The notes under the pieces: generated by a model
Database searches by the model: none
What the model saw: the letters and a program-made list of their open reading frames with translations, nothing else
Told to the model about the DNA's origin: nothing
Position numbers and translations under genes: made by a program
Part shown: piece after piece, positions 271 to 61,677 of the stretch
Numbering within the stretch: the first letter of the stretch is position 1
How the letters are laid out: every line of letters starts with the position of its first letter
Assembly: GCA_026182355.1 (NCBI GenBank)
Contig: JAPFBL010001928.1
Location: 6,527,501-6,591,500, forward strand
Direction of reading: 5' to 3'
DNA: 64,000 nucleotides
From: Hermatobates lingyangjiaoensis
Taxonomy: Eukaryota; Arthropoda; Insecta; Hemiptera; Hermatobatidae

Positions 271-463
271 AACAGTTCAAAATTGAAGATGGGTAGTACA
301 CAAAGCAAAGAAACACGCTTACAAACTCGAATTTTCGGGCAATCCGTACAACGTGCTTGGTCTCCCTTTCTCTTTTCTCCTGAAGACGGATTACCCGAAA
401 ATTTAAGTTTGAAAATGTGTTTCTTTACTTTGTGTGTTACTTATCTTCAATTTTGAACTGTTA
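271..463. repeat. HHR-bearing inverted repeat (hairpin)
   Basis: The left arm (about 271-345) is nearly the reverse complement of the right arm (about 385-463), and TA tracts lie at both ends. The right arm carries an intact hammerhead core on the plus strand. In the left arm the stem II and GAAA half is recognisable but the CUGANGA box is lost. Confidence 0.85.
380..400 (+). ncRNA. Hammerhead ribozyme core
   Basis: CUGAAGA at 380-386, one extra C, a short GG/CC stem II, and GAAA at 397-400. It is followed by AAUU, a palindromic stem III, with U as the cleavage-site nucleotide. The stem is short, so activity is uncertain. Confidence 0.6.
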
Positions 464-752
464 TATATATTATATATATATATATATATAAATATATATA
501 TATACTTAATTTATATGTAATATAAAACGATTCCGTGACAGTAAAAAGGTTAAAATTAAAACCAGTATTACATGTGGACATATATAAAAACTATCATACT
601 TCTTTTACTTATATCTTTTTTTCATGTGTTTTGATTAATCTGTTCTTCTTCTTTTTGAAATGAAAATTGTTTGTAAAAGTCATTTACAAAGATAGTAACT
701 AAGAATAATTGTTTGTTTATACTTTCGTCTAAAAGATTCTAAATCTACTTAC

Positions 753-850
753 AGGTTCTTGGAAAATATCTTCCGTCACGTAACCTAATTCCATTTTTGG
801 TTGTTCAGGTTTCACCTCAATCTGTTGATCCGCCATTAGTTTTGTCTTAT
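753..850 (-). CDS. First coding exon of an unrecognised gene
   Basis: The exon is bounded by a good acceptor (TTTTCAG before 850) and a good donor (GTAAGT at 752-747). After a 14-base leader the ATG at 836-834 opens 28 codons ending in phase 0 (begins MADQQIEVKPEQ, ends EDIFQEP). The acceptor implies an upstream untranslated exon, and the gene continues off the left edge. It could instead be an extra 3' exon of the DCST2 locus, but DCST2 already has a stop at 3782. I do not recognise the protein. Confidence 0.5.
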
Positions 851-1080
851 CTGAAAATTTCACTATACTTAAAACAACTTAATGAGAAAGCAAAAAAAAA
901 TGTATAGTGCATTATTGATAATTGTCATTATCATAGATATATATATATGAGTACAATCAATGATCAAACCACAATATGAAATGGGAAAACAAGACTAAAA
1001 TCTCATTGTAGGGTAAAAAGCTGATGAAATGGTCTCCACATATAAAAAAAATGTAAATTTAATTTAATTTAAACAACGCA

Positions 1081-1107
1081 TTTCGAACATGTAGTGTTCT
1101 TCCTCAG
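1081..1107 (-). ncRNA. Hammerhead ribozyme core
   Basis: On the minus strand: CUGAGGA, an extra A, GAACA/UGUUC stem II, then GAAA. The stem III region AUGCGU can pair with itself (A-U, U-G, G-C). Confidence 0.7.
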
Positions 1108-1194
1108 AGTATGAGGAAGTACCACATTTATTATGAGTAAATACCACATAATAACTGATTGCACTTCGTTAGAATTAGAAATAGGCTAAGATTA

Positions 1195-1223
1195 TTCAAC
1201 CGTAAGAAGCGGTCTTCGTCAGT
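1195..1223 (-). ncRNA. Degenerate hammerhead core, family A
   Basis: CUGACGA and the GACCG/CGGUU stem II are present, but GAAA reads GAAU, so it should not cleave. It lies about 100 bp from the minus-strand core at 1081-1107. Confidence 0.5.
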
Positions 1224-1387
1224 CAAAAACCCAAGTGTTATTTCACGTGTTCATGTGAAATCTTTTTATAGTACATACCTATATGAGTACAAATAAATAA
1301 ATTCGAAAAGAGTAACACTAGCACTCTTAACACTTTTGGTTTCAACGTCTCTACATCGGTGTGCTTAATCTTCCTCTATTTCTTCTC

Positions 1388-1409
1388 CTGATGACGAACG
1401 AACCGGAAA
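1388..1409 (+). ncRNA. Degenerate hammerhead-like core
   Basis: CUGAUGA and GAAA are present with the right spacing, but no convincing stem II forms between them. Probably a decayed copy. Confidence 0.35.
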
Positions 1410-1946
1410 TAGTAGACTGTAAATGTTATTTTTAGTTATTCTGTATCTGTAATCTTTTTGAAGTATTTGTTGCCATTTAGGATCGTTTACTCATTGCTCA
1501 AAATGATTTTAAATTAATTAATATTAATAAAGCAGTAACTCGGACGGACTTAATTATTTTTGCGTGGGAACTTTCGAAACACAAAATCTTTTTTTTTTTT
1601 ATCATATGCCCATTCTTTTAGCCCTAAAGTTAGTTATAAACAAAACAAATTTCATAAAATTGCTATTACAGCAAAGGTCAATATACTTATAGAAACTGTA
1701 AATTAATTTTGGAATAATGTATCACTTGCTGTAGTTGATATAGTTGTCGGATTTGTTTACATTTAATGTGGTTCATACAGACTGGTATGGGTTCTTTTAT
1801 AATAGTATGGATAACTAAATAACAATGAAAAAAAGTTAGTTAAAATACATGCAAGGTTTTCATTAAATAGTAATAACATAATAAGAAAACAGTTTGATAA
1901 CTTTTATCTAACGACCTGCTTACGACCTCCTCGGGCGGCAAAAATA

Positions 1947-2276
1947 GTTTCAATGGTGAAATTATTGAAAACCATTGAAACGGCGCCACTGTTTCAATGG
2001 TGAAACCATTGAAAACCATTGAAACGGTGCCACAGTTTCAATGGTGAAACTATTGAAAAACATTGAAACGGCGCCACTGTTTCAATGGTGAAACTATTGA
2101 AAACCATTGAAACGGCGCCACTGTTTCAATGGTGAAACCATTGAAAACCATTGAAACGGTGCCACAGTTTCAATGGTGAAACTATTGAAAAACATTGAAA
2201 CGGCGCCACTGTTTCAATAGTGAAACTATTGAAAAACATTGAAACGGCGCCACTGTTTCAATGGTGAAGTTAAGCA
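1947..2276. repeat. 44-bp minisatellite, about 7.5 copies
   Basis: Unit starts fall at 1947, 1991 and 2035, giving a 44 bp period. Each unit is internally palindromic (GTTTCAATGG against CCATTGAAAC) and ends in GGCGCCACTG or a variant. That ending resembles the end of the putative DNA element at 4404-4915. Confidence 0.9.
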
Positions 2277-2293
2277 CCATAAATGAATTAGTA

Positions 2294-2782
2294 CCGTCTT
2301 TTTCCGAAAATAAGACACTGTCTTATTTTCTCTTTTGATCCAAAATACGTGCTAGGGCTTATTTTCGTGGAAGGGCTTCTAGTACAATAACTAATAGGTA
2401 ATAATCAGACTTACGAGACTGAAATGCACAAACATGTACCGGCACCGTCACCGGAACTCACTACTGCCTTCTGTTATACGTTAGAGGTAAATTCTACTTT
2501 ATATATTCCAGAAATTAATTATTGACACGTGCCTCTGTATTGCATGAAACGAATTGTACAGGTAATCAAAGAATTTCTCAGAATATTTTTTTTTTTTAAA
2601 TATTCTCTGAAATATTAGGGCAACTGGAAATACTACTAAATTCAACTTTAATGGTTAACGAATTATATTTTTCAGATTATTTTAACAAGGGATTATTTTT
2701 AGAAGATGGCTTATATTCCAAAAAGTCCCCAAAATCAGGGTAGGGCTAATTTTCGAGGGATGTATTTTCGGAAAAAGACGGC
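2294..2782. mobile_element. Non-autonomous TIR element, about 490 bp
   Basis: The left end CCGTCTTTTTCCGAAAATA is matched by the reverse complement at the right end (TATTTTCGGAAAAAGACGG, with one internal difference). Interior motifs TTATTTTCG also repeat in opposite orientation. No ORF is present, and the target duplication cannot be defined confidently. Confidence 0.65.
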
Positions 2783-3182
2783 ATATTTAAAGATTATTGT
2801 TTTTTTTCTTTCTTGTCATCATAAACATCGATGACAGGATTTTAATGATATTTGTAGGTTTTAAATGAAAATAAATATTTTGAGGACTTTCTTGAATTTG
2901 GAGATTAAAGCATTATCAACGGCAAGCTGTGGGAGAGGGGGGGGGGGGTGCAAATCTTACGAGCGTCTCGGGTTACTATTCCTCTGTTCATATTAACACC
3001 ATCTGAAATTTTGAGAATCAAAATCTGAGATTTTGAAGAACCATTAAAAATTACTGAAAACATTTTGTATAGACATTCGTTTTTTTCAACGCTTTCACCA
3101 TTTCGTGACATTCTAAGGGTGGAATATTTGGCTTATTTATGATTGGCACCCATTTTAGTAATGAGCATGATACATTACCTGT
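2783..3182. other. Intergenic, no gene; relic of a G-rich repeat
   Basis: No coding exon is visible. The stretch around 2880-3020 (a poly-G run, then a block ending in ATTAACACCAT) resembles 3690-3760 and the right part of the 4404-4915 element, so it is probably an older copy. Confidence 0.4.
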
Positions 3183-3424
3183 TGATTCTACATTGAGGAG
3201 TCCTAAAGTGTGCCTGACTAAAATGTATTTAGAGTAGGGATCTTTAACGAGTACAAGACATCGTATAGGCTCGGGACCGACGGCTTAACATCCTCTCTGA
3301 GGCACGACATACTCAGATTTATTCACCTCCTGCGTGATTAAATCGAGGGCCAGGAGGGGATCGAACCTCCGGACTACCAGCCAAGAAGGGAGTACGTTAA
3401 CCATCGAGCTAACCATACCCCCTT
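3183..3424 (-). mobile_element. tRNA-derived SINE copy
   Basis: The tRNA-like head is at about 3340-3424 on the minus strand, with A-box-like and B-box-like segments. The body contains the family markers of paired GAATAAAT-type and GACGTTAAGC-type segments. About 14 copies of the family lie in the window. Confidence 0.75.
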
Positions 3425-3781: not shown

Positions 3782-4289
3782 TCAGAAAGCTTCTTCTGAA
3801 TTAGAAGATAATTTACCTTTATGTTTGCAAGGAGCCCGTCTTCCTCCTCTCTTTTGACTTAGCAACGAACCTTTCGTTTTATAAGTTGATAATAAAGAAG
3901 TACACTCGCTTATTTCTTCTTCTTCTTTAGGCCCTTCTGATAATGAATCATCTATTAAAATCACTTCCTCTGAAGACTGTTCAACAAATTCAACAGAGTC
4001 CATTAATGAAACATCTTCAGGTGTTTCTACTTTTGATCTAGATGTTAAACTTTCAATAGTTGTCTTTATAGAAGGGAAAATAATATCACTTGTTCTTTTT
4101 TTCAAAGGAACCATTTGAAGATTTGAATTTCTGTGGATTTCTTCATCAGATTCAAATTCAATAAAAGTTTGTTCAGATTCTTTTTCACTTGGAGTTTTTG
4201 TTACATTTGTCTCAGTAATTCCATCTTCAATAGTTAATGTTGTCCTACTGGATCCATAACTAAGACTATAGTCAACATCGGATGAATCC
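3782..4289 (-). CDS. DCST2: DCST2 exon 15 (terminal)
   Basis: The acceptor CTTTTCAG precedes 4289. The reading frame continues from exon 14 (phase 2 plus 1 base gives Arg) for 168 residues to TGA at 3784-3782. It encodes an acidic, Ser/Thr/Glu-rich cytoplasmic tail (runs such as KEEEE and SSEEV) ending in a basic patch and SSNSEEAF. Vertebrate DCST2 likewise has a long low-complexity tail after the finger, beginning with a DSSD-type acidic motif as here. No membrane segment is present. Confidence 0.8.
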
Positions 4290-4403
4290 CTGAAAAGACA
4301 ACCATTATATTAGAGTAATTTTAAAAGTAATGTGGAAACCCATTTGCTGCTTCAATTAGAGACTCTTAATGAGAGTAATTAGTACATATTAATGAGAGTG
4401 ATC

Positions 4404-6331: not shown

Positions 6332-7048
6332 CTGCGAACCAGTTAACAAACAATCTTAATGAAAGGAGTACTCACACTTGTAACTTATTTATGTAATAAG
6401 TATTAAGATTCTTAAAGTAGTTTCTTAAGACAGCTTTAAGAAGATGTCTTCTAAAATTACGAACACAAGACTCTTGTTTCTTGTATTGTTAGTATAGTAA
6501 AATACAGTGCTTTGAAGATGTATGTTCCATTAAGGAAATAATAAGTAAGATTATACAACAGCAACGAAAAAGCGAAGAACTTCAGTTTATTCACATTAGC
6601 AACAAAGGTGCTGCAATAAAGTAAAACTTAAGGTCAACTAATAAAAACCTTCATTTTTGGTAGAAAAGACACTCAGAGTAGAAACAAACGCCTATATTAA
6701 TTGTACTAGATTGTACCATTGTATGTGCATATTACTGTATTCTAGATATATTTACTGCTTTCTTACATTTGAAATTGGGAATCAGTTAAAAGAGATTTAA
6801 CTTACAGCCACGCATTCTAAGAAACGATTGGTATATTATTATTATTACTATTGTATCGCACATTATTACAAATCTATTATTCTTATATACCCTGGGACTG
6901 TTGTCCCTCCGTCAATTCACTTCTTCTCCTGAGGACGACCGCCATAACGGTCGAAATATTGAAAAGTGTCTTTGTTTAGTTTCTTTCTATGTGTCACAGT
7001 TTCTTTTAAGTGTAATCTGTCCTGCCAGACCGGTTTTCGTTTATCAGG

Positions 7049-7084
<36 letters not shown>

Positions 7085-7723
7085 TAGGCTTCAGCTACTC
7101 AAAGGGACTACTTCTACTCGACGACGACGAATGTCGAAATATCGTAGTGAGTCTTTAGTGTGTCTTTTTATCTGTTTTTCTCTTTCCTTTGTGAACTTTA
7201 TATATATATATATATATATATTTGTAAAAGTGTACATTTAACAATATATAAATCTAAAGACCTACTGGTAAATTGATAACAAATATAACAGCAGAGAAAT
7301 AAGCACACTAATATTATTATATTAGGTAATTATTCAATAAAGGTAGACATAAAACTACAATACGAATTAATTTAGTTGAGAATTTCATTTTCATAATTGA
7401 CGGAATTTTTATTTATCATAATTTCCGAAGTGCGAAATGCAATTAATAATGTTCGCACGATGACACTAATGGTAACATAAAATCACCTTCATAATATACG
7501 TAGTGGAGTATTTCATTTGGTATAAGCAGCTCGTTGTGTGATTTACGAGCACAACGAGTTTTCTCTTTCCTAATATTATTCATTACTCATATTTAAGAAC
7601 AACTGAATGCTGTTAACATTCTGCAACTGCAGGATGAGAAGAACAACTAAATTCTTTTAACTACAAGCTTAGGAACATACTACAGTGAACAGTAAAATTA
7701 ATCAAGCAATGTTCAATACTTAC
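6332..7723. other. DCST2 intron 13, repeats only
   Basis: It holds an intact hammerhead core (6929), a degenerate one (about 7117-7139), two (TA)n tracts (7047-7082 and 7198-7220) and otherwise AT-rich sequence without recognisable coding potential. Confidence 0.7.
6929..6956 (+). ncRNA. Hammerhead ribozyme core, family B
   Basis: CUGAGGA, an extra C, perfect 5-bp stem II GACCG/CGGUC, then GAAA, followed by AUAU as a self-complementary stem III. A 3' tail shared with the copy at 45093 runs to a (TA)n tract at 7047. Confidence 0.8.
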
Positions 7724-7988
7724 ACAGCAACCAGTCTCTCTTTAACTGAAACTTTTTCAATTCCTGAACGACCTTTCGTGAACTTCCGTCTAAGTTGTCT
7801 TCTCATGAACTTGACGAAAGAGCCTCTCCGGTTGAGAATGTGGTTATAAAGCCAAGCAGATCTTCTTCTGGAGACATCGGGGTTGTAGTGACACATGACG
7901 ACATTCCTAAGGCGAAGACCGTAAGGCTCTGTCAAGGCGAGCAGCCAGACCATTCCTAGCAGCATCACTGGAAACATCAACATGTTGA
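7724..7988 (-). CDS. DCST2: DCST2 exon 13, DC-STAMP core
   Basis: The acceptor is AAAG before 7988 and the donor is GTAAGT at 7723. The 265 bases join in phase with exons 12 and 14. It encodes a hydrophobic segment (NMLMFPVMLLGMVWLLAL) and then the family signature EPYGLRLRNVV, a tyrosine/proline stretch, and WLYNHILNRR followed by a basic region. DC-STAMP family proteins carry the same membrane segment, RLR motif and LYN motif. The first part of this exon, with its acceptor, is repeated upstream at 8033-8455. Confidence 0.88.
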
Positions 7989-8455
7989 CTTTAATCTGGC
8001 TGTTTAGTTCATTCTTATATCATACTGGGGTGGTAGTGACACATGACGACATTCCTAAGGCGAAGACCGTAAGGCTCTGTCAAGGCGAGCAGCCAGACCA
8101 TTCCTAGCAGCATCACTGGAAACATCAACATGTTGACTTTAATCTGGCTGTTTAGTTCATTCTTATATCATACTGGGGTAGTAGTGACACATGACGACAT
8201 TCCTAAGGCGAAGACCGTAAGGCTCTGTCAAGGCGAGCAGCCAGACCATTCCTAGCAGCATCACTGGAAACATCAACATGTTGACTTTAATCTGGCTGTT
8301 TAGTTCATTCTTATATCATACTGGGGTAGTAGTGACACATGACGACATTCCTAAGGCGAAGACCGTAAGGCTCTGTCAAGGCGAGCAGCCAGACCATTCC
8401 TAGCAGCATCACTGGAAACATCAACATGTTGACTTTAATCTGGCTGCTTAGTTCA
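7884..8455. repeat. 148-bp tandem repeat copying the exon 13 acceptor and start
   Basis: GTAGTGACACATGAC begins at 7884, 8033, 8181 and 8329, giving four units 148-149 bp apart. Each contains the exon 13 acceptor and about 105 coding bases. The three upstream copies diverge after the CHY codons and reach an in-frame stop within a few codons. Copies are nearly identical, so the duplication is recent or homogenised. Confidence 0.95.
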
Positions 8456-8708
8456 ATTACTGCCTCCTGATTGAAATATCGAAATCAAAAATAATGAAAT
8501 ACTTATTAGCAGAAGTTGTCAAATTACCATAAACCTTCTCAAGTATGGGTAATTTATAAAACATAATAAATTAATCTGGGTTGAGACTCCATGCAACTTT
8601 TATTTTCGTACTTATAAACTAGTACACCACCTTTGCTTCTCATGATGAACAAATAATACTCACACTACTATAAATAACAAAATAATAATTAGTTTAAGGA
8701 GATTTTTT

Positions 8709-10325
8709 ACTTTACTATAAGTAAAGTATAGTGATCGTGAAAAAATTCGATCTCGAGATTTTGACGGAATTACATGTTTTGAGGTCCCAGAAGTCGTTTT
8801 ATGAAGTTTTTACGATGATGTCTGTGTGTGTGTGGGTGGGTGGGTGGGTGCGTGTGTTAGCATTGCTTGTTACCACGCTACGGTCCAGAATCTTTGATGG
8901 ATCAAGTTGATATTTTACACAAAAATGGGCCCCATTTAGACGAAGATCCCTATTGTTTGGGAAGAATTATGCATGATGGGAAAGTCACTTTTTTTGCCAA
9001 AAACCGTTTTTTTTAAAACATTTATTTCTCCTAAACTACTAACCCTAGATTTTTGAGATTTTGACATTATCTTTGAGGTTACAAATGGAACAAACGAAAA
9101 ATATATTCAAAATTTTATATCAACAGGAAATATTTTTTTTTCAATAAAATGTACAAATTTTGACTTATAAATCAATCTCAAACCTTGTGAGAGCGATACA
9201 AGCCATACTGTTTGACGGACAAGAATGAAACTATGCCTATAAATAGAACATTATATGGACAATGAGTTGAAATATTTTTTTCTAAAATTACATTCGCTAA
9301 AGGGGCGTTAGAGTACGATTTGTGTTTTCAGAAAATGTTTTTTGACGCTAAACGGCTCGTTAAAAAATTATGAAAATTTGACCAAAAATGGAACAAAAAA
9401 TTAGCAATTCATAAAAAAAAAATCATGAAGTTTCAATTACGGGAAAGAGCAATAACGATATAAAAACTCTTTGTTTATCCTAGACTAAGAGATCACCTGC
9501 TATACTTGTCGAATTTTTTGTATTTTTTTACATTGTTTACATTGACTTAGAAAATTTTTGAGCGAATCCACTGAGATAAAATTGATGTTTCTAATGGAAA
9601 AATGAAAATATATTATTGACTTATAAGAGATGTAAGAGGAATAATATTGTGCAGGTAAATGATAACACTCATTAAAAAAAAATCGTATATATGTTATTTG
9701 ACAAAGGGGAAGGAAAATGATCTTATTAAATACTAAGAAGCCATAAAATTCCCAATATAATAATTCTGTTAAAAACCAAAAATGTAAAAGATAATTCAAA
9801 ATTGAAATATTTCGTTTAGAGATTAATAACTGTAATTATCGTACATCTTTAATTAACAAATCACCTTAAAACAACATTTTCTTCGCTGTTTAAGATGTTT
9901 TTCAGAGAAAAAAAGAGTATTTTACTGTTTTAAATTTGAAAATTTTACATTAATATTCAATGTAGAAGGATGTTAAGTAAACGATGTAAGAAATCTACTG
10001 GCTATTTGAACAATAGCCATGTTCTCTTGTAGGATAATATTTCGTTTCAAGAAATGTTCACATTGGTTTTTCAAAAATGATATTACTGCTGTAGTTATAC
10101 TAATGGAATTATTTGCAAATAATAAATTATTTGTGATGTACAAAAATAAGCTTATAAATTGATATGTCCTTCAATCACTATCTGTACTACCTCACGAATG
10201 CAATGCTAATAATTATATCCCATTTAGATATTTATGTTATGCTTAAATGATACGTTATGTTTTATATACTCAAGAAATTTGACATTGAGTTACTTATAGT
10301 AAAGTAGAGTGTAGGCCACTCCAGA
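8709..10325 (+). mobile_element. Full-length 1.6-kb non-autonomous DNA element, copy A
   Basis: The left end ACTTTACTATAAGTAAAGT and the right end with CTTATAGTAAAGTAGAGTG are inverted and each partly palindromic. The interior has GT/GGGT simple repeats near the left end and no intact ORF. A near-identical inverted copy is at 61678-63313, and fragments occur throughout. The superfamily is not assigned. Confidence 0.75.
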
Positions 10326-10339
10326 TTTTTTTTTATGAT

Positions 10340-13984: not shown

Positions 13985-14275
13985 AAAAACTGACTTTCCC
14001 GTCATGCATAATTCTTCCCAAACAATAGGGATCATCTATATTATCGGGCCCATTTTTGCGAAAAATATCAACTTGATCCATCAAAGATTCTGCACCATAG
14101 CCTGGTAACAAGCAATCCTAACATATTCACCCACCCACCCACGCACACAACACACACACAGACATCATCGCAAAAACATCATAAAACGACTTTTGGGGCC
14201 TCAAAACATATGATTCCGTCAAAATCTCGAGATCGAATTTTTTCACGATCATTATACTTATAGTAAAGTAAAACT
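13985..14275 (-). mobile_element. Fragment of the 1.6-kb DNA element
   Basis: Matches the left-end 290 bp of the element at 8709 in inverse orientation, including the ACTTTACTATAAG terminus and the CCCACC/CACACA simple repeat. It ends about 65 bp from the exon 12 donor. Confidence 0.8.
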
Positions 14276-14338
14276 GAGAGAATATTTTAAAATCAGAAAA
14301 TAGTAAGAAAGGAGTTGATGGTGGTTTTGAATACTGAC

Positions 14339-14503
14339 GTATTTGGTGGTACTTGGCGTAATCGGGAGGAGCGGGGTCAGGAAGACAGGCGAGCGTGTCC
14401 ATGTCGAGCTTGATACTGGAGGGCTGAAAGAGGTTGACGATGGAGGAGAACAACTCTGACACGACGCCTTTACCTTCCACCTGCACCTCAATGCTGGCAG
14501 CAC
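14339..14503 (-). CDS. DCST2: DCST2 exon 12
   Basis: Acceptor CCACAG precedes 14503; donor GTCAGT follows 14339; phases 1 and 1. It encodes about 55 residues with VEGKGVVSELF, SSIVNLFQPS, and CLPDPAPPDYAKYHQI. This is the extracellular part of the DC-STAMP region, which in the family runs from a VxGxG motif to a PPDY motif just before the membrane segment of exon 13. GC-rich compared with its surroundings. Confidence 0.88.
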
Positions 14504-14570
14504 CTGTGGACCGCAGAGTCAGTACTCTGAAGAGTCTGGTGTCTCGAGTGACCCCCAAGTGTCTGCCTAC

Positions 14571-14739
14571 CTTCTGCGCCGGCCTTGAGTCTGCCGTGCC
14601 GCCTGATCACCGTCAGCAGCCACCACAGACTGTAGTCGGCCATCATGTGGAAGGAGATCTTGAGCGTCACCAGACCCAGCAGCACTGAAGTCGTCATTAT
14701 CTTGATCCGCTCGCTTGGCAGCAGACGCCACGACGAGAA
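14571..14739 (-). CDS. DCST2: DCST2 exon 11
   Basis: The acceptor is GTTTAG before 14739 and the donor GTAGGC follows 14571. The intron to exon 12 is only 67 bases. It encodes RLLPSERIKI, a hydrophobic stretch (SVLLGLVTLKISFHMM) and ADYSLWWLLTVIRRHG. DCST proteins have the same order of a (L)LPSE-type motif and a membrane segment with an aromatic DY.xxW. The acceptor is the edge unit of the 42-bp minisatellite at 14757-15735. Confidence 0.87.
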
Positions 14740-14756
14740 CTAAACAGCCATCCTAG

Positions 14757-15735
14757 TCGTTTAGAACTAGTCACACTAGAAGTGAACAACCACAGTAGTC
14801 ATCTAGAACTAGTCACACTAGAACTGAACAACTATACTAGCCATCTAGTACTAGTCACACTAGAAGTGAACAACCACAGTAGTCATCTAGAACTAGTCAC
14901 ACTAGAACTGAATAACTATACTAGCCATCTAGTACTAGTCACACTAGAAGTGAACAACCACAGTAGTCATCTAGAACTAGTCACACTAGAAGTAAACAGC
15001 TATACTTGCCAGCTAGAACTAGTCACACTAGAACTGAACAGCCATACTAGACATCTAGAACTAGTCACACTAGAACTGAACAACCATACTAGTTATCTAG
15101 AACTAGTCACACTAGAACTGAACAACTATACTAGTCATCTAGAACTATTCACACTAGAAGTGAACAGCTACAGTAGTCATCTAGATCTAGTCACACTAGA
15201 AGTGAACAGCTATACTAGTCATCTAGTACTAGTCACACTAGAAGTGAACAACCACAGTAGTCATCTAGAACTAGTCACACTAGAACTGAACAACTATACT
15301 AGTCATCTAGAACTATTCACACTAGAAGTGAACAGCTACAGTAGTCATCTAGAACTAGTCACACTAGAACTGAACAGCCATACTAGTCATCTGGTACTAG
15401 TCACACTAGAAGTGAACAACCATACTAGTTATCTAGAACTAGTCACTCTAGAACTGAACAACTATACTAGTCATCTAGAACTATTCACACTAGAAGTGAA
15501 CAGCTACAGTAGTCATCTAGAACTAGTCACACTAGAACTGAACAACTATACTAGCCATCTAGTACTAGTCACACTAGAAGTGAACAACCACAGTAGTCAT
15601 CTAGAACTAGTCACACTAGAAATAAACAGCTATACTTGTCAGCTAGAACTAGTCACACTAGAAGTGAACAGCTATACTAGTCATCTGGAACTGGTCACAC
15701 TAGAACTAAGAAACCACACTAGTCATCTATTTTAA
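14757..15735. repeat. 42-bp minisatellite, about 23 copies, abutting the exon 11 acceptor
   Basis: The unit contains CTAGAACTAGTCACACTAGAA and recurs every 42 bp. Because 42 is a multiple of 3, one plus-strand frame stays open for 317 codons (14-residue repeats such as NNHSSHLELVTLEL). On the minus strand each unit carries GGCTGTTCAGTTCTAG or a variant, nearly the same as the exon 11 acceptor. Confidence 0.95.
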
Positions 15736-16760: not shown

Positions 16761-16826
16761 ATTCTGAGGTAAAATGGATAAACAAACAAAAGTCTCCACA
16801 CAAGAAGGTTTTTCAACAACAAAGCG

Positions 16827-16853
16827 TTTCGAACACTTTGTGTTCATCATCAG
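16827..16853 (-). ncRNA. Hammerhead ribozyme core, family G
   Basis: CUGAUGA, an extra U, perfect 6-bp stem II GAACAC/GUGUUC with an AAA loop, then GAAA. Among the best-formed cores in the window. Confidence 0.82.
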
Positions 16854-17006
16854 TAAGACACTACAATACAAATTATATCTAATCAGTTACAAAATTAGAG
16901 TGAAATAATAAAATTCAATTAAGAGAATTAAAGACATACCCAAGGATGTGGTGCTGAACCTCTAATTTTGTAACTGATTAAATATAATTTGTTTTGTAGT
17001 GTCTTC

Positions 17007-17033
17007 CTGATGATGAACACAAAGTGTTTGAAA
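17007..17033 (+). ncRNA. Hammerhead ribozyme core, family G
   Basis: CUGAUGA, an extra U, stem II GAACAC/GUGUUU (final pair G-U), then GAAA. Partner of the minus-strand core at 16827. Confidence 0.78.
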
Positions 17034-17371
17034 AGTGTTGTTGTTGTTGAATAAAACTTCATTTGTGTGACGACTTTTGTTTGTTTATCCATTTTACCTC
17101 AGAATGAGTAAATACTAAACAATTACGGATTGCGCAACTAATGATTTATTATACTATTTGAATGACGTTAATAACATACTAGTATCATTCATTAGTATCT
17201 GGTATTGCATTTCCCGAGATACGTTTAGTCTAGGATTTTTTTGTTGAAAAATTTCTTGGTTTTATTTAAGAATCATGATGTTTAATAAAAGTAACTCCTG
17301 TAATTTGGAAAATAATATTGCTTAGTCTTCTAGACTTAGATGCTAATTGAAGTTCTTTGGTCAAAACTGAC

Positions 17372-18978: not shown

Positions 18979-18998
18979 CTGATGATGTTGTAACGAAA
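18979..18998 (+). ncRNA. Hammerhead ribozyme core, family D
   Basis: CUGAUGA, an extra U, GUU/AAC stem II, then GAAA, followed by AGGCCU (palindromic stem III) and U. The stem is only 3 bp. Confidence 0.6.
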
Positions 18999-19250: not shown

Positions 19251-19295
19251 AGAGCAAACAAAGTAAAAAAAGACACTTCTTACTTTGTTTACTCT

Positions 19296-43406: not shown

Positions 43407-43786
43407 CTATATATATATTATATATATATGTAAGTACAATTTAACTATCTTTTTGCAAAGTGTCCTTCTATTATAACGTTTTGCTTAATAAACAAAACTA
43501 CTAACCTTTTAGTTAAGGTCATAGGAAACAAACAAATTCGATAGATCATAGGAAAGGGGTACATAACAGTTCAGAAGATACTCACAAAAATTCAAATGCA
43601 TCTTGTTTTGATGATATTTATATTATGCAACAAATAAGAAAAAATTGTAGAATATCAGCTCCTTTTGTTAATTGGAAGCTTCATAAATAAATGTATATAT
43701 ATATATATATATAATATGTATGTACGTATATACATAAATATATATGATCAAACCACAATATGAAATGTGGAAACCAGGCTAAGATC

Positions 43787-43815
43787 TTTCAACCGTAACA
43801 GGCGGTCTCCGTCAG
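43787..43815 (-). ncRNA. Variant hammerhead core, family A
   Basis: CUGACGG replaces CUGACGA (A9 changed); stem II and GAAA intact. Confidence 0.55.
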
Positions 43816-43857
43816 AGTCAAAAACCCAACTGTTAGGTGTCAGTTAGGTTTTTGATT

Positions 43858-43886
43858 CTAACGAAGACCGCTTTTTATGGTTGAAA
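43858..43886 (+). ncRNA. Variant hammerhead core, family A
   Basis: CUAACGA variant; stem II GACCG with UGGUU; GAAA intact. Confidence 0.5.
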
Positions 43887-44086
43887 GATCTTTGTTTTGT
43901 TTTCCCATTTCATATTGTGGTTTGATCATTGATTGTTATTTCACGTGTTTATGTGAAATCTTTATATATATATATATATTGTGTTAAACTGAATTGCCTT
44001 AATCAAACATAGCTTTCTTCTTAAGCAGTTTTTCATATTTTCTAGCTAATTTCAATTCGTCTTGATTCAGCTGGTGAATTACCATA

Positions 44087-44290
44087 TATCAGCAAAACTC
44101 CAGTTGGACATCACTATTTATTAACTAACATTTTACAAAAGATTTTACAACTAAATTAAAATAAACTTGACATGTTTTATTTCTGAAGATGGTTGGAGAC
44201 AACCGAAACATGTCAAGTTTATTTTAATTTAGTTGTAAAATCTTGTGTAAAATGATAGTTAATAAATAGTGATGTCCAACTGGAGTTTAG
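44087..44290. repeat. HHR-bearing inverted repeat, family J
   Basis: Arms contain AACTCCAGTTGGACATCAC and the reverse complement, and converge on the core at 44183. No long TA border. Confidence 0.9.
44183..44208 (+). ncRNA. Hammerhead ribozyme core, family J
   Basis: CUGAAGA, an extra U, stem II GGUU/AACC, then GAAA, palindromic ACAUGU, C as cleavage nucleotide, and AAGU able to pair with AUUU before the core. The most complete type I HHR in the window. Confidence 0.85.
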
Positions 44291-44999: not shown

Positions 45000-45018
<19 letters not shown>

Positions 45019-45180
45019 TAAGCAGTGACACATAAACAGAAACACAACAAAGACTCACTTTTCAATATTTCGACCGTAATTCACTTCTTCTCCTGAGGAC
45101 GACCGCCATTACGGTCGAAATATTGAAAAGTGAGTCTTTGTTGTGTTTCTGTTTATGTGTCACTGCTTATTTTAATTGTT
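45000..45180. repeat. HHR-bearing hairpin, family B
   Basis: Arms with AAAATAAGCAGTGACACATA and its complement close on the core at 45093; TA tract at the left. Confidence 0.9.
45093..45120 (+). ncRNA. Hammerhead ribozyme core, family B
   Basis: CUGAGGA, an extra C, 5-bp stem II GACCG/CGGUC, GAAA, then AUAU palindrome; AAGUG downstream pairs with CACUU upstream as outer stem I. Confidence 0.83.
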
Positions 45181-45287
45181 ATTTGTCCTGCCGGACCGTT
45201 TTTCGTTTATCATGGTGTATATATATATATATATGTATATATATATGATCAAACCACAATATGAAATGGGAAAACAAGACCAAGATC

Positions 45288-45316
45288 TTTCAACCGTAAC
45301 AAGCGGTCTTCGTCAG
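45288..45316 (-). ncRNA. Hammerhead ribozyme core, family A
   Basis: CUGACGA, an extra A, GACCG/CGGUU, GAAA, AGAUCU. Its mirror arm (to 45375) starts inside stem II, so only one strand has a full core. Confidence 0.78.
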
Positions 45317-45539
45317 AGTTACGGTTGAAAGATCTTAGTTTTGTTTTTCCATTTCATATTGTGGTTTGATCATTGATTGTTATTTCATGTGTTTATGTGA
45401 ATTCTTTATATATATATATATATATATATATAGATCTGCATTAACAATTGCTTTCAATAGAACCCAATTGTTCTTTTTTCGAACTACTTTTCTGCGCTGC
45501 AAATGCAATTATATTATTGCCTCCATTATGCCCCTAGGA

Positions 45540-45790: not shown

Positions 45791-46075
45791 ATGATCTTGA
45801 ATGCAGAAACTGCGATCATTTTCAATATTATATATATATATATATATATTGATAAAAGTATCAACCGTGGAATAGAAACCAAATTAAAGTTTATCAGGAC
45901 TTGGTCAGTGGACCGAGTTTTTTTGTTAAAAAACAAAGGAATTGTTAATATTCAGATATAATTCCAGTTAATCTCCTAGGGCTACACAATAACTTATATT
46001 GATCCTTATTTGGCCCACAGGCCGCAGGCTACCCATGCCTGTCTTAAATCAATAATATCAATAATGAATATTTAC

Positions 46076-46388
46076 CTTGGTTATCCTGAGTTTCTTTATA
46101 TCACCTTCAGCCTGTGAATAGGCCTTAAGAAATCCACAGTCATCGATTTTCATATGATCAGCAAGTGGTTTAAAAGCTTCCACCGTTTCCAATGGCAGGT
46201 ATGCAAAACCCTCTTTGGATCTACCTTTGGCCTTGTAGTCGCTGATCCATTCTTCAAAAGTTTCAATTGCCTCGTTTAAATTGGTTCTTTTTTCTTTGTC
46301 GGTTGTTCTTTTGTATATGACCTTAGCCCTGTTGTACATTGAATTGACTATTTGCAGCTGGTAACTAGGGTCCCTTCCCTCCAGCAAT
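46076..46388 (-). CDS. Gene 2 exon 2, unknown conserved protein
   Basis: Acceptor GATCGTAG precedes 46388; donor GTAAAT follows 46076; 313 bases, phase 2 in and 0 out. It encodes LLEGRDPSYQLQIVNSMYNR, AKVIYKRTTDKEKRTNLNEA, IETFEEWISDYKAKGRSKEG and onward to YSQAEGDIKKLRITK. Predicted soluble, largely helical. With exons 1 and 3 it gives an uninterrupted 226-residue protein. Confidence 0.85.
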
Positions 46389-46455
46389 CTACGATCATAA
46401 ACAAATTTCAAAAAATCACAAAACAAACATCAACATTCATTACCAAATCACTTAC

Positions 46456-48399: not shown

Positions 48400-48640
48400 C
48401 GTTCTACATTGGGAGTCCTAATTTTTACCTAACTCAAGTGGATTGCCAGTAATGATCTTTAACGAGTACCTGACATAGAACAGGCTCACAACCGACGGAT
48501 TAACGTCCTCTCCCAGGGACGACATACTCAGATTTATTCACTTCCCGCGTGAATAAATTGAGGGTTATAAGTGGGTATCGAACCCCGGACCTTCCAATTC
48601 TTAGGTGAGTGCGTTAACCATTGAGCTAACCTGGCCCCTT
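48400..48640 (-). mobile_element. tRNA-derived SINE copy
   Basis: Body and head in minus orientation; preceded by CTAGCGGGTGATAACGTCAG as at 29992. Confidence 0.8.
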
Positions 48641-48713
48641 TCTTATTGTAAGTTGTACCATTATATTCTGTCGTACTCAACATAGGAGGTCGATTTAATA
48701 TCATTATGGGGGG

Positions 48714-49015
48714 TCAGGCTAGCTCAGTGGTTACGTGCTCGCCTCTGAACTGATATCCTCACCTGGCCCTCGATTTATTCACGCGGGAGGTGAATAAATC
48801 TGAGCACGTCCTCCCTCGGAGAAGGACGTTAAACCGTCGGTCCCGAGCATGTACGATGTCAGGAACTCGTTAAAGATCCCTACTCTAAATACATTTGAGT
48901 TAGGCAAAATTTAGTACTCCCACTGTAGAATCAATCTTCATTGTGTGGTATCACAAAGGGCTATTGCTGGGCCTACGTGTGTTCCCTTGTGGAACTGACA
49001 CTGCAACCTAACCTA
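48714..49015 (+). mobile_element. tRNA-derived SINE copy
   Basis: Head GGCTAGCTCAGTGGTTACG; a deletion removes most of the B-box. Body complete to CACTGCAACCTAACC. Lies tail to tail with the SINE at 48400. Confidence 0.8.
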
Positions 49016-52059: not shown

Positions 52060-52400
52060 GTGTGGTGTTTACTCATGTTAGGAAATATATTAAATCTTCA
52101 CACAAAAAAGTTTATTACAAGAAACAACGTGTTTCGAACACGTGATATTCTTCTTCAGGTTACATCTAGAAAAAATATATATGTATTTCATTATTATTCA
52201 CATTTCAAATTATTTCCGTTATCACTCAATAGTGTCAGATGTATTCATTTTAATTAATTCACTCCGATGTTCCCAAAGCTCTTAAATGTATATATATATA
52301 TTCTAGATGGAACTTGAAGACGAACATCAAGTGTTCGAATCGCTTTGCTTAGTTTCTTGTAATAAACTTTTTTTTGTGTGGACACTTAATACTTTTCCTA
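52060..52400. repeat. HHR-bearing inverted repeat
   Basis: Arms share TTAGGAAATATATTAAAT-type sequence and its complement. Left arm has an intact core; the right arm (about 52313-52340) has CUUGAAGA and GAAU. Confidence 0.8.
52132..52158 (-). ncRNA. Hammerhead ribozyme core
   Basis: CUGAAGA, an extra A, stem II GAAUA/UGUUC (weaker), then GAAA. Related to family G. Confidence 0.6.
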
Positions 52401-52981
52401 ACATTTAATAGATTTATTCTAACAAATAGAGTATTTTCTTTTTTGGTAAATCAAGTAAGATTTGTATAATTATTGCTGTTTAAGAAAGACGTTTGGGTGA
52501 AGAATAATTGCTACTTATGGTTATTTCATTCTTGTACGATGCTAGTTTATACTTTTATGAATTTGCATTACTGTAAGAGCCTTATAATTTTAAGGCAGAT
52601 TAAAATGTACTGACTAGGCAAATAATTATAAAAGAAAAATAAATAAAAATGTGAATAATCAAACTATCAACTGCAAGGGCATTCAAAGTAATGAATCATC
52701 CTATTGATTTTGATCATGTTAATAGATTTCATGATTATTAAACAAATAATAAAGGACAAGAATAGTCTCTTGTACACATTACGAACCGTCAAAGCCCTTA
52801 GCCAAGTTGTATACTCGTACACCAGTATAAGTTATATAAACGAAGTTCAGCAACACTGGCGTGTAACTTGAATGAGAGACAGCTAATGATGTTGGCACCA
52901 CTGATGGGTGGTTCGTTATAGATTAAATAAGTACAGAAACAATAATGAACGACACTTTCCCCCTTAGTAAACCTCCATATG

Positions 52982-53295
52982 GGGCCAGGTTAGCCAAGTG
53001 GAAATTCACTCGGATCTGGAATGGTAGGTCCGGGGTTCAATACCCACTAATGGTCCTCGATTTACTCACGCTGGCGGTGAATAAATTTGAGCGCGTCGGG
53101 AAAGTACGTTAAGCCATCGGTCCCGAGCCTGTACCATGTCAGTTACTTGTTAAACATCACTACTCTAAATACACTTGAGTTAGGCAAAATTTAGGACTCC
53201 CAAAGCAGAATAATTGGACAAATGTAGAATCTCAAAGGACAAATGTTTAGCTTATGTGTTCTATTGTGAGGCTGCCACTGCAAACTAATCTAATC
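52982..53295 (+). mobile_element. tRNA-derived SINE copy
   Basis: Head GGGCCAGGTTAGCCAAGTGG, B-box GGGGTTCAATACCC, full body. Confidence 0.82.
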
Positions 53296-53673: not shown

Positions 53674-53948
53674 GGGGGGCCAGGGTAGCTCAGTGGTTAA
53701 CATACTCGCCACTGAACTGATAGAACCGGGGTTCGATCCCCACCTGGCCCTCGATTTATTCATGCGGGAGGTGAATAAATCTGACCACGTTGTCTTTCAG
53801 AGAAGGACGTTAAACCATCGGTCCCGAGCCTGTACGATGTCAATTACTCCTTGAAGATCCCTACTCTAAATACAATTTGAGGTAGGAAAAATTTAGGTGG
53901 CCCACGTGTGTTCCCTTGTGAGACTGCCACTGCGACCTAACCTAACCT
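53674..53948 (+). mobile_element. tRNA-derived SINE copy
   Basis: Best-preserved head in the window: GGTAGCTCAGTGGTTAACA and GGGGTTCGATCCCCACC, then the body with a short 3' deletion. Confidence 0.85.
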
Positions 53949-56930: not shown

Positions 56931-57559
56931 GATAATTTTCATTTATTTAATATTATTCAGGTAATAAATATTATATATTATAATTTTAGGTCTCTATCTC
57001 CACGGAAAATGGGTGAACAAACAGACAAACAAACTCACTAACTATGTATAGATGTGAATGTAATGAAGAGAGTTTATCGAAGTTTTATTTATCGGAAATT
57101 CAGAGGAAATTACTCTTCAGAGGAAATATTAGGTAGAAATATAAATCTAACATATTTAAGATTTTAGTTATGGCTAGCCTAGGATATAGTTAAATATAAA
57201 AAGATAAGGATTTAGCATACTGCTGTTTAATGTAAACGGAAAACCAAGATATTGGTGACACTAACTGTACATTGTTTGGCGTCTCGTAAGAACCCAAGAT
57301 AGGAAAGGACTTTACCAATGGCTTTCTTTGTGTCTGTATGCAAATCCCGGATACTAAGGTACTAAGCTATATCTTGTTTTGCAGATATAAGAAAGTGAAT
57401 CATTATATTTTAACAAACTCAGCCCTGGCAGCCATCAAATATTATATATTAAATAATATACCTATATATAATATATATATGTTATATATATCATATATTA
57501 TATTATATACATCTTGCTGTTCTTTTCTTGACCACTCTATTCATATGCTTTGAGATTTG

Positions 57560-57711
57560 TTAAGGTTTTTGGCCTAGATATTAAAAAAAAAACTTCTTTG
57601 CCAACGTTTTGACATATATTTTAGCCCTGAGGAAGACATAAATATATGTCGAAACGTTGGCATAGAAGTTTTTTTTTAATATCTAGGCCAAAAATCCTTA
57701 AAAAATCTCAA

Positions 57712-57715
<4 letters not shown>
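57560..57715. repeat. HHR-bearing hairpin, family K
   Basis: Arms of about 70 bp with TTTTTGGCCTAGATATT and complement; a TA tract follows on the right. Confidence 0.9.
57627..57654 (+). ncRNA. Hammerhead ribozyme core, family K
   Basis: CUGAGGA, an extra A, stem II GACAU/AUGUC, then GAAA, ACGU palindrome, U. Confidence 0.8.
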
Positions 57716-57745
<30 letters not shown>

Positions 57746-57818
57746 ATATCATATAAACACGTGAAATAACAATCAATGATCAAACCATAATATGAAATGG
57801 GAAAACAAGACTAAGATC

Positions 57819-57850
57819 TTTCAAACGTAACAAGCGGTCTTCGTCGTCAG
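57819..57850 (-). ncRNA. Hammerhead ribozyme core, family A
   Basis: CUGACGA followed by a 3-base GAC-type duplication, then the usual stem with GUUU for GUUA; GAAA intact. Confidence 0.6.
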
Positions 57851-57864
57851 TTGGGTTTTTGACT

Positions 57865-57892
57865 CTGACGAAGACCGCTTGTACGGTTGAAA
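57865..57892 (+). ncRNA. Hammerhead ribozyme core, family A
   Basis: CUGACGA, an extra A, GACCG/CGGUU with a one-base shorter loop, GAAA, AGAUCU. Confidence 0.76.
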
Positions 57893-58794
57893 GATCTTAT
57901 TCTTGTTTTCCCATTTCTTATTGTGGTTTGATCATTGATATATATATATATATATATAATATATATATGTTTTCTTATCTCGATCACATATATTTAACAT
58001 TATTTTTTTCTTTTATTGAGGTTTGATCTGGCTTCAAACTATACAACACCATTAAGCCGACGTTTTGTCTATATTTTATTGTAATTAAATTCTGTATTGA
58101 AGTAACCCTTATTTATATATCTACATTAATTTGATATATCCAAGGATAGACTATAGAACAGTCATAATTAAATTACAGACAATAATATTTAAATATGGCA
58201 TATATTTACTAATTTATCAACTTATAAAATATAGTAAAAGATTTAAAATATTTTAATTTTTAGTAAAAAAGAACAATTTTAGTTATGTATAGTTGTTACT
58301 TTAAAGTGGTGTCCTCTTACTGTTCTAGATTCGAAGAAAAAGTTAGTGTTTATGAATTGGTTGAAGGTTGTTAAATGTGTTTTAGGGGTGAGGACTTTGC
58401 TCATTTCGAGCTTGGCTACGCCCCTCCGCTATAAACATCCCCAGTACTGTCTACCAGTTAACTTCACAAATATTATTTCTTTTCAACTCTATCCTAGTTG
58501 ATATTACGATAAAAAGAAAAAAAAACTTTATATATTCAGGAATATTTATATATCTGTAATTTAAAATAAAAACAAAACTACCATCCACTTTCAAATAACT
58601 ATAAGTAACGAACATTTTTATTTTATATTGAAAATTTAAATATTTTAAATGTTTTACTGTAAGTTCAATTCTTTTTTATATATTTCAGAAATATTTAATT
58701 GCTACCATAAAGTAGGATAGTGTACAATAATTACGTAAAATTTGAAAGAAAATTAAGAAATAAAAAATAAAAATTTTTTAAAGGTACTCTGCTA

Positions 58795-59715: not shown

Positions 59716-59998
59716 CTAAGGACCACCAAGTCTGCCTAACTTAGCAGGTCACTTACAAATACTAACAGATGAGTGGCATAATAAACCGTCTATTATTAAT
59801 TACTCAAACCATATTTGAGTAATCAACTTAATAAGTGTATCCATCAACTCTTCTAAGAATTGATACACTATATTTAGTTTACCAACTCTTCGAGTTGATT
59901 TAGTTGTTGCACCCTCTAAGTTGAATATATATATGCATATATACACTTTAAACACATAGAAAAGAACACAGAAAGACACTACAGAACTCACTTCGATA

Positions 59999-60020
59999 TT
60001 TCGACATCCGTCGTCATCGG
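59999..60020 (-). ncRNA. Variant hammerhead core, family C
   Basis: CCGAUGA, an extra C, GAC/GUC, GAAA, AUAU. Confidence 0.5.
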
Positions 60021-60113
60021 GAAGAAGTGCGAAGTACTCGCGTTGAGAAGCAAACTGCTACTTAGTTGCTGAGTAGCAGTTTGCTTCTCAACGCGAGTAC
60101 TTCGCACTTCTTC

Positions 60114-60135
60114 CCGATGACGACGGATGTCGAAA
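60114..60135 (+). ncRNA. Variant hammerhead core, family C
   Basis: Mirror copy of 59999-60020. Confidence 0.5.
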
Positions 60136-60417
60136 TATCGAAGTGAGTTCTGTAGTGTCTTTCTGTGTTCTTTTCTATGTGTTAAAGTGTTTATTGTCCA
60201 CACGGACCTTTCATTTTATTCGAAGTATATGTATATATATACGAGTATATATACATGAATGTTTTCTTTATCTCGACCACATATATATAACACCATTTTT
60301 CTTGTTTATCGAGGTTTGGTTGAATTACTGAAGCTAGACCAAACCTCGATAAACAAGAAAAATAGTATATATATATGATCAAAACACAATATGAAATGGG
60401 AATACAAGACTAAGATC

Positions 60418-60446
60418 TTTCAACCGTAACAAGCAGTCTTCGTCAG
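60418..60446 (-). ncRNA. Hammerhead ribozyme core, family A
   Basis: CUGACGA, an extra A, GACUG/CGGUU (one C to U change gives a U-G pair), GAAA, AGAUCU. Confidence 0.72.
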
Positions 60447-60460
60447 TTGGGTTTTTGACT

Positions 60461-60489
60461 CTAACGAAGACCGCTTGTTACGGTTGAAA
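60461..60489 (+). ncRNA. Variant hammerhead core, family A
   Basis: CUAACGA variant with intact stem II and GAAA. Confidence 0.55.
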
Positions 60490-60691
60490 GATCTTAGTCT
60501 TGTTTTCCCATTTCATATTGTGGTTTGATCATTGTTTGTTATTTCACATGTTTATGTGAAATCTTTATATATATATTATATATATACTCTAAAAATTGTT
60601 CTTGTCCTCTTCTATTCTATTTTATGTGGTAGGTTTTGTTTTTTCAGGGCTAGATCATATAAAAGAAAATAAACTCCTTCCTAGTCCAACG

Positions 60692-60719
60692 TTTCGATGT
60701 ATTTGTGCATCATCTTCAG
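60692..60719 (-). ncRNA. Hammerhead ribozyme core, family L
   Basis: CUGAAGA, an extra U, GAUG/CAUC stem II, GAAA, ACGU, U. Confidence 0.8.
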
Positions 60720-60832
60720 GACTGAAATTAGAGTAAGATAGTTGTTCTCAATAAGTTAGTTCTCCATGTAGGTTGTAGATTGTTTTGGTAAATGTATTAT
60801 AGTTTTTACTCTAATTTTAGCCCTGAAGATGA

Positions 60833-60850
60833 TGTACAAATACATGGAAA
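60833..60850 (+). ncRNA. Hammerhead ribozyme core, family L
   Basis: CUGAAGA, an extra U, AUGUA/UACAU stem with the first pair mismatched, GAAA, ACGU, U. Confidence 0.68.
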
Positions 60851-61069
60851 CGTTGGTCTAGAAAGGAGTTTATTTTCTTTTATATGACCTAGCTCTCGAA
60901 AAACAAAACCTACCTAATACAATAGAATAGAAGAGGACAAGAACAATTTTTTGAGAATATATATATATATATATATTGTAAAGAGGAGAACGATCCCAAA
61001 GGACAACAAATGTTTCACGATAAATTACAGACACAGAAATACGATACGAACACACTTACTGTCTCTAAT

Positions 61070-61090
61070 TTTCGGTTGAACCGTCATCAG
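61070..61090 (-). ncRNA. Hammerhead ribozyme core, family F
   Basis: CUGAUGA, an extra C, GGUU/AACC with a very small loop, GAAA, AAUU palindrome, A. Confidence 0.65.
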
Positions 61091-61479
61091 GAGAGTTGAG
61101 ATAGGGACACCAAGCGCACTTGTGAAGCGACGGTTGGTCTCCGTCTCACAGGAACATTTTAGAACCACTAGGCTTCAACCTGAACTGTCATTTTCTGTTG
61201 GCAATTTTATTTACTTACTTATTTCGACGACGCGGTCGAAATAGTGCGAGTTTCTGTGATCTCTTTTATGTGTGTTTTTTCTGTGAATCTAGTTTATATA
61301 CATATATAACATGTAATATACAAACGGTCCAAACAGGACAAATTAGTAACTGTTAAATAAGTAGAACACATTAAAGAACGAGACAATTACTAGAATAAAT
61401 ATTTCGAACTACGGTGGTTGGAGACCCCCTCCAACCGTCGCTTCGCATGTGCGCTTGGGGTATCCTTATCTCTTCTCTC

Positions 61480-61500
61480 CTGATGACTGTTAAACCGAAA
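61480..61500 (+). ncRNA. Hammerhead ribozyme core, family F
   Basis: Mirror of 61070 with one stem change (UGUU/AACC); GAAA and AAUU intact. Confidence 0.6.
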
Positions 61501-61677
61501 ATTAGAGACTATAAGTTCGTTTTTCTATTTACTGTATACCTATAGTTTACTTTCAAACATCTGTTCTCCTTTGTGGATCGTTTTCTTGATGATAATATAT
61601 ATATATAACAAGATTTGACAATAAACACATGAAACAATAATCAATGTTCAAACCACAATAAGAAATGAAAAAAAAAA

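Follow-up and report, generated by a model that had tools for sequence, protein, structure and literature searches.

The 64-kb window analysed here (64,000 nucleotides of contig JAPFBL010001928.1 from the hemipteran Hermatobates lingyangjiaoensis) contains hammerhead ribozyme cores of many families, on both strands and far above chance expectation. Judged from their letters, the sites appear to be minimal type I hammerheads, in which a stem III could be formed only between two copies. It is proposed, with a probability of about 0.7, that they are the intact and decayed hammerheads of short, non-autonomous retroelements of the Penelope-like element (PLE) type. The motif, its excess over chance, covariation in its stems, short palindromes, inverted pairing of many sites and the unit boundaries of one family, F1, are all observed in the window. 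Coordinates below are window positions, with the strand in brackets where it applies.

Hammerhead motifs and their covariation

The pattern CTGANGA-N6-36-GAAA, searched on both strands, gave 36 matches, against a mean of 4.11 and a maximum of 9 in 100 dinucleotide shuffles. A stricter set, with 6–30 nt for stem II and one count per start, holds 34 sites, against a mean of 3.1 and a maximum of 8 in 100 shuffles. Some three to four of the core matches are expected to have arisen by chance. The matches at 3970(+) and 4128(−) (3970–4149) are probably of this kind; both lie inside a 175-aa open frame at 3782–4309(−) and are placed outside the hammerhead set. An earlier note on this DNA had pointed to the recurrent order of CTGANGA, stem and GAAA on both strands, which these counts bear out, and every position that it listed (380, 6929, 16827, 22479, 26786, 29607, 44183, 45093, 57627 and 60692) is an exact match. 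Its attribution of the motif to a hammerhead type known from PLEs and retrozymes is supported by the presence of cores of many families on both strands, and its 'at least ten families' is a fair rough estimate, for grouping by eye gives nine to twelve, several of which look related. Its 'about thirty intact' cores agrees with the 34 sites in number and not in condition, as only 10 retain the core together with all the elements described next.

The flanks of the sites were set against hammerhead numbering. The bases after GAA often form a short palindrome that begins with A and ends with T and is followed by a base other than G, at position H17. The palindrome differs between families: AGATCT in F1, AGGCCT in F2, ACGT in F3, AATT in F4, ATAT in F5 and ACATGT in F6. 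After H17 follow bases complementary to those immediately upstream of CTGA, which together would make stem I. A self-complementary stem III, from A15.1 at its start to U16.1 at its end, with a non-G H17 is present at 22 of the 34 sites, compared with 0.34 in shuffles of the whole window and 3.4 when only the flanks were shuffled. With a stem I of at least 3 bp added, 14 of 34 sites remain, compared with 0.01 and 0.25, respectively; swapping the upstream flanks among the sites gave a mean of 4.4 and a maximum of 10. In none of the site flanks is there a stem III closed within one molecule, only the palindrome of 4 or 6 nt. The palindromic minimal stem III, H17 and the complementarity of stem I did not figure in the earlier note.

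Core, stem I and stem II (each of at least 3 bp) and palindrome occur together at 10 of the 34 sites and in none of 20 shuffles; H17 is non-G at all 10, an exclusion that was not built into that script. Searching for all elements with one change allowed in the core found 7 sites, against a shuffle mean of 0.1 (20 shuffles). With two changes allowed it found 5, and since the same number of shuffles averaged 1.25, these are in part due to chance. Altered cores also recur among related copies, as CCGATGA in three identical motifs (family F5b) and TTGAAAA in one element (F3d).

Stem I was further examined with one sequence per family, the families being grouped by eye, and 20,000 permutations. Automatic clustering had merged 34 of 39 sites, which we think was caused by the overlapping flanks of neighbouring elements. 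Among 11 families, 31 of 33 proximal stem I positions pair, against a permuted mean of 20.8 and a maximum of 30 (0/20,000); when four pairs per family are considered, 37 of 44 do so, a value reached by 2 of the 20,000 permutations. Collapsing related families to seven leaves 20/21 (38/20,000) and, with four pairs, 26/28 (11/20,000). A version with 13 families (36/39) was set aside in favour of that with 11, as the alignment of two families had been chosen for pairing. The types of base pair differ between families, so stem I covaries. Stem II, which the earlier note had described as remaining paired while differing between families, has at least three pairs, with one mismatch allowed, at 26 of the 34 sites; family F2 and the sites at 380, 1388, 4128 and 61480 fall short of this.

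Units, inverted pairs and families

Self-comparison of the window revealed inverted repeats of 167–644 bp around many of the sites. An inverted partner, defined by a fixed criterion, accompanies 23 of 34 sites; the criterion picks out 30 of 300 random positions, and 17 of 300 when these are drawn away from the sites. The geometry is head-to-head in 20 of these 23; the exceptions are 18979, 19090 and 25553, whose partners are something other than a head-to-head copy of the same unit. The sites at 61070 and 61480 form an additional head-to-head pair with a longer centre.

The F1 unit spans ~143 bp and starts with TCAGTTGGG, 18 bases before the core, where stem I has its outer edge. The unrestricted self-comparison likewise places unit starts there, at 25533–25535, 25775–25778, 26041, 43838, 57846–57847 and 60439–60443. 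Nine F1 junctions were listed and eight counted, the pair 1183–1237/1236–1284 being dropped as its right arm starts at unit base 95 and has no hammerhead. The right arms of the eight start at unit bases 1, 1, 1, 1, 1, 3, 6 and 37. The left arms, which are variably truncated, start at 1, 1, 2, 8, 16, 19, 21 and 64. The query for both began at unit base 1, so that earlier starts could not appear. A 3′-terminal stem-loop is clear in F1 (26059) and not in F5, F5b or F2, and no common 3′ structure is therefore claimed.

Tracts of (TA)5 or longer lie within 220 nt downstream of 20 of 33 sites, compared with 13.6% of random positions. Where a site lacks an inverted partner, (TA)n lies downstream of 6929, 47654 and 1081, with the 600 nt upstream of each free of it; on both sides of 27155; only upstream of 27404 and 1388; and only further downstream of 26786. 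It is absent at 28292.

F1 includes the array at 25535–26183 (~25534–26183 by its 262-bp period), in which five units of 90–143 bp alternate in orientation and carry hammerheads at 25553(+), 25713(−), 25797(+), 25964(−; core CTGTCGA) and 26059(+), with the palindrome AGATCT (AGATTT at 25553), U at H17 and stem I GACT/AGTC. Head-to-head F1 pairs occur at 29521–29744, where 29607(−) is intact and 29669(+) has a CTAACGA core; at 43696–43979, with decayed cores; at 45245–45426, where 45288(−) is intact and the 5′ side is cut in both arms; at 57723–57939 (57819(−) and 57865(+)); and at 60349–60584 (60418(−) and 60461(+)). Another F1 pair, at 27277–27474 with a core at 27404(+), has a strongly truncated left arm, and a single copy lies at 19073–19161(+), with its core at 19090(+) and its palindrome decayed to AGATTT. 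A 32-letter F1 pattern had no match in viral contigs and none in prokaryote contigs.

F2 comprises a core at 18979–18998(+), with AGGCCT, U at H17, stem I GCTCT/AGAGC and a very weak stem II, and a head-to-head pair at 19176–19369 (19232(−) and 19296(+)) with the same palindrome and an equally weak stem II; 28292(−) is a decayed relative. The F3 elements share the palindrome ACGT. F3a (22391–22565, core 22479(+)) and F3b (57538–57724, core 57627(+)) are inverted elements with U at H17 and stem I GCC/GGC, whose arms meet in the stem II loop. F3c is an inverted pair at 60566–60975 (60692(−) and 60823(+)) in which the arms begin at −17 from the core. The inverted element F3d (26174–26514, 26409(+)) has the core TTGAAAA with stem I GCC/GGC, stem II, palindrome and C at H17 retained. 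Beside it, at 26543–26667, self-comparison showed an inverted repeat of 125 bp that has no hammerhead core. F4 is an inverted pair at 60964–61607 (61070(−) and 61480(+)) with AATT, A at H17 and stem I TCTC/GAGA; 1388(+) and possibly 27155(+) are decayed relatives.

F5 includes an inverted element at 45011–45177 (core 45093(+)) with ATAT, U at H17, a proximal stem I of 2 bp and a possible distal CACTT/AAGTG; a copy without an inverted partner at 6914–7079(+) (core 6929(+)); and a further copy with a decayed palindrome (core 47654(−)). F5b is an inverted pair at 59939–60194 (59999(−) and 60114(+)), with arms 96.5% alike, the core CCGATGA, ATAT, C at H17 and stem I CTTC/GAAG. A copy at 25307–25451(−), with its CCGATGA motif at 25375(−), is 98.4% (123 nt) and 93.2% (146 nt) identical to these arms, and a decayed copy lies at 7110–7221(+) (7118(+), core TCGACGA). 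F6 is a 194-bp inverted element at 44095–44288 with one hammerhead at its apex (44183(+)), ACATGT, C at H17 and stem I ATTT/AAGT. The F7 inverted pair at 16761–17105 (16827(−) and 17007(+)) retains core and stem II without a palindrome; its relative at 52075–52404 (52132(−)) has stem I AAC/GTT and stem III ACACGT, and a possible relative at 1081–1107(−) retains core and stem II, with stem III ATGCGT and a stem I of 1 bp. Group F8 consists of the core at 26786–26810(+), starting at 26786(+), with stem II and no palindrome, and group F9 of an inverted element at 269–464 (core 380(+)) with AATT, a weak stem II and no proximal stem I pairs by script.

Origin of the units and rival explanations

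The window is read as full of short, non-autonomous PLE-type units because the traits of these units match published PLE traits. Starting from the outer edge of stem I, each unit would carry its hammerhead at the 5′ end, often with (TA)n nearby. An active ribozyme would need two copies paired through the palindromic stem III; dimeric action through a minimal stem III is known for newt hammerheads and has been proposed for PLEs. Most units lie as head-to-head inverted pairs, an arrangement shared by the pseudo-long terminal repeats (pLTRs) of PLEs, and the best account of it is that the reverse transcript folded back or the enzyme jumped between templates. The ribozyme of such an inverted copy can be drawn into pairing with the other arm, which may keep it silent. 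From these features we infer a PLE origin, with the units corresponding to pLTRs, along with dimeric cleavage, silencing and the route of retrotransposition.

Folding predictions bear on silencing and on the dimer. Of seven short segments folded, four have their arms joined in one long hairpin, with stem II retained at 44183. In the local best fold, with 150 nt on each side, 23 of the 34 cores are paired elsewhere, among them 18 of the 23 that have an inverted partner and 5 of the 11 that have none. RNAcofold was run with two identical copies of each sequence, under an energy model of the type that leaves out tertiary contacts; 25713 and 18979 pair stem III and not stem I.

Several observations weigh against the proposal. 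Control segments of the same lengths are also often paired elsewhere (163 of 300 random, 144 of 300 away from cores), so the number of blocked cores speaks only weakly for silencing. RNAcofold preferred the full double hammerhead for only 1 of 14 sequences (19232), and its result is for this reason not used as support. The H17 base at the 22 palindromic sites is U in 18, C in 2 and A in 2, and U is a slow choice for hammerhead cleavage. F2 is almost without a stem II, while F5b and F3d persist despite their changed cores. Tracts of (TA)n, which may represent target or tail, also lie upstream of 16 of 33 sites. Pfam found no reverse transcriptase or GIY-YIG domain in the 20 open frames scanned, out of 183 that reach 60 aa.

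A further adverse result comes from Rfam. The earlier note had expected covariance hits at its positions and had named background scores there as contradicting the claim, and formally this is the outcome: scans of the whole window, at gathering score and with E allowed up to 10, listed no hammerhead family, nor did those of two short stretches. What the scans did return stayed below threshold; many of these matches were to microRNA models and are read as the inverted repeats. We think that the silence reflects Rfam hammerhead models that expect a closed stem III, and the negative is not taken as a refutation because the motifs lack a closed stem III. An Rfam scan can miss the minimal hammerhead class, which may therefore be undercounted.

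The same features could belong to other kinds of element. If the units were metazoan retrozymes, tandem transcripts would cleave themselves through type I hammerheads, be circularised by tRNA ligase and be copied by a helper reverse transcriptase. The 262-bp period of the F1 array falls inside the 150–450 bp reported for metazoan type I hammerhead repeats (PMC7229834), and amphibian retrozyme hammerheads have a palindromic helix III loop and act as dimers, according to the passages drawn on from the same source. Nevertheless, this origin seems unlikely: most copies here are head-to-head rather than in direct tandem, the starting point of F1 units is the outer edge of stem I rather than the cleavage site, and stem III is minimal, as in PLEs. 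A search for a direct-tandem retrozyme array left 25534–26183 as the sole array with a core and a period of 150–450 bp, and it was rejected as its units alternate in orientation. Movement by a transposase, with the units as foldback elements or relatives of miniature inverted-repeat transposable elements and the hammerhead incidental and inherited, would suit the many inverted repeats of 167–644 bp. It appears improbable in view of the partnerless copies at 6929, 47654 and 1081, which have (TA)n on their downstream side alone, of F1 arms cut unequally at the centre, and of the constraints on stem I and palindrome across families, which need an explanation at the RNA level.

That AT-rich repeats happened to yield CTGANGA..GAAA, multiplied by a few repeat families, is very improbable. 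Several families are indeed repeats, so that the sites are non-independent, and the few chance cores noted above are expected. However, the eye-grouped families share stem I complementarity and palindromes to an extent that permutation reached in 0/20,000 cases for 11 families and 38/20,000 for 7, and the counts of palindrome, H17 and stem I, like the all-element search, contradict chance when set against shuffles.

Within the PLE reading, a bolder and rather doubtful suggestion is that the hammerhead segment doubles as the fold-back site at which PLE head-to-head copies are made, and that families can go on spreading with a damaged core. In two F1 pairs the first base of the left arm is unit base 19 or 21, at the core CTGA or inside it. 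One of these is 60418/60461, where TCAG is common to both arms; it is the complement of the core CTGA and is also the sequence with which the F1 unit begins at its 5′ end. In F3a (22479), F3b (57627) and F5 (45093) the arms come together in the loop of stem II, with short stretches in common. A cDNA end that folds back onto the hammerhead segment would fit these junctions. At the 45093 junction, AAT is common to the stem II loop and the upstream flank (by eye, compared with 6929 and 47654). F5b and F3d, which keep stems and palindrome around CCGATGA and TTGAAAA, would fit the part concerning damaged cores. Against it, the other F1 junctions have spacers of 0, 6, 7, 19, 30 and 32 nt with no such overlap, and breakpoints clustered in the hammerhead count for little, because the pairs were sought around hammerheads in the first place. 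With many families side by side, intact and damaged cores among them and mostly in mirror-image pairs, it can be asked whether cleavage, dimer pairing or no more than the fold of the segment is conserved as the elements spread.

Neighbouring sequences and known systems

The 20 open frames scanned with Pfam yielded DC-STAMP exons and one sub-threshold hAT match. Frames 14130–14606(−) and 7723–8019(−) match different parts of a DC-STAMP-like family above cut-off and are probably exons of one animal gene; the latter frame overlaps a tandem array at 7879–8455 (148 bp, 3.9 copies). Frame 39287–39526(+) holds the sub-threshold match (E 0.043), which is to the dimerisation region of hAT. Frame 46061–46429(−) has 69% identity over 85% to a 176-aa protein, P0001, the sole match of one homology search; this relative matched no Pfam family at E up to 0.01, although PF21491 stands on its record. 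Self-comparison also revealed a dispersed family of ~240 bp resembling short interspersed nuclear elements, with copies at 3182–3422, 27508–27740, 30038–30275, 31512–31691, 34316–34543, 48402–48641, 48755–49015, 52981–53211 and 53675–53897, the second of which has a sub-threshold Rfam tRNA match at 27512–27583. An inverted duplicate of 1.65 kb and 96.9% identity occupies 8704–10334 and 61669–63316; the single frame of it given to Pfam matched no family above cut-off. Minisatellites that read as open frames occupy 14753–15729 (42-bp unit, 23 copies) and 37984–39180 (22-bp and 62-bp units).

Cervera and de la Pena (2014) and Lunse et al. (2017) reportedly treated the minimal type I hammerheads of PLEs and Terminons. 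Such hammerheads without helix III are described in PLEs in the passages drawn on from PMC6155905 and PMC7761336. As in the present window, those of PLEs and Terminons consist of CUGANGA, stem II, GAAA and stem I with helix III missing or tiny, occur as many divergent families per genome and are thought to cleave as dimers. Unlike them, the window shows no PLE open frame among those scanned, and its units lie mostly as inverted pairs instead of direct tandems. The role of the hammerhead in PLEs is called unknown in the part of a review consulted (PMC7761336).

For inverted pairing, the nearest likeness is the Penelope element of Adineta vaga, which, in the cited portions of PMC3846280, has an inverted pLTR on the 5′ side, head-to-head and shorter than the direct copy, with junction palindromes that were interpreted as self-priming. 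Here the units are of pLTR size and no gene was seen between them; the word hammerhead has 0 occurrences in PMC3846280. Among the literature matches listed, considered by title and abstract opening and with the key PLE hammerhead papers outside their scope, none joined hammerheads with inverted pairs. Poseidon PAc of Anolis carolinensis likewise has a hammerhead of stems I and II only and involves AT-rich DNA, which it cleaves as target; it differs in encoding a protein, in whose presence alone its hammerhead cleaved, and its insertion in vitro did not depend on hammerhead cleavage, as given in the sections used of PMC11167929.

Metazoan retrozymes of the non-long-terminal-repeat kind resemble the units here in being short and low in GC and in their type I hammerheads, and in the axolotl a palindromic helix III loop accompanies dimeric action (PMC7229834, in the passages cited). 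They differ in forming direct tandem repeats where the copies here are head-to-head, and most of those in invertebrates have a stable helix III, minimal in the present sites (PMC7761336, likewise in part). The density and diversity that the earlier note called remarkable hold up as to density, while the kind is not new: the coral Acropora millepora is reported to contain over 6,000 hammerhead motifs belonging to 16 families, with up to 1,508 of the motifs canonical and the rest resembling the minimal PLE variants (PMC7229834, same passages). The set described here, for which no priority is claimed, is thus a dense and diverse example of a kind already known.

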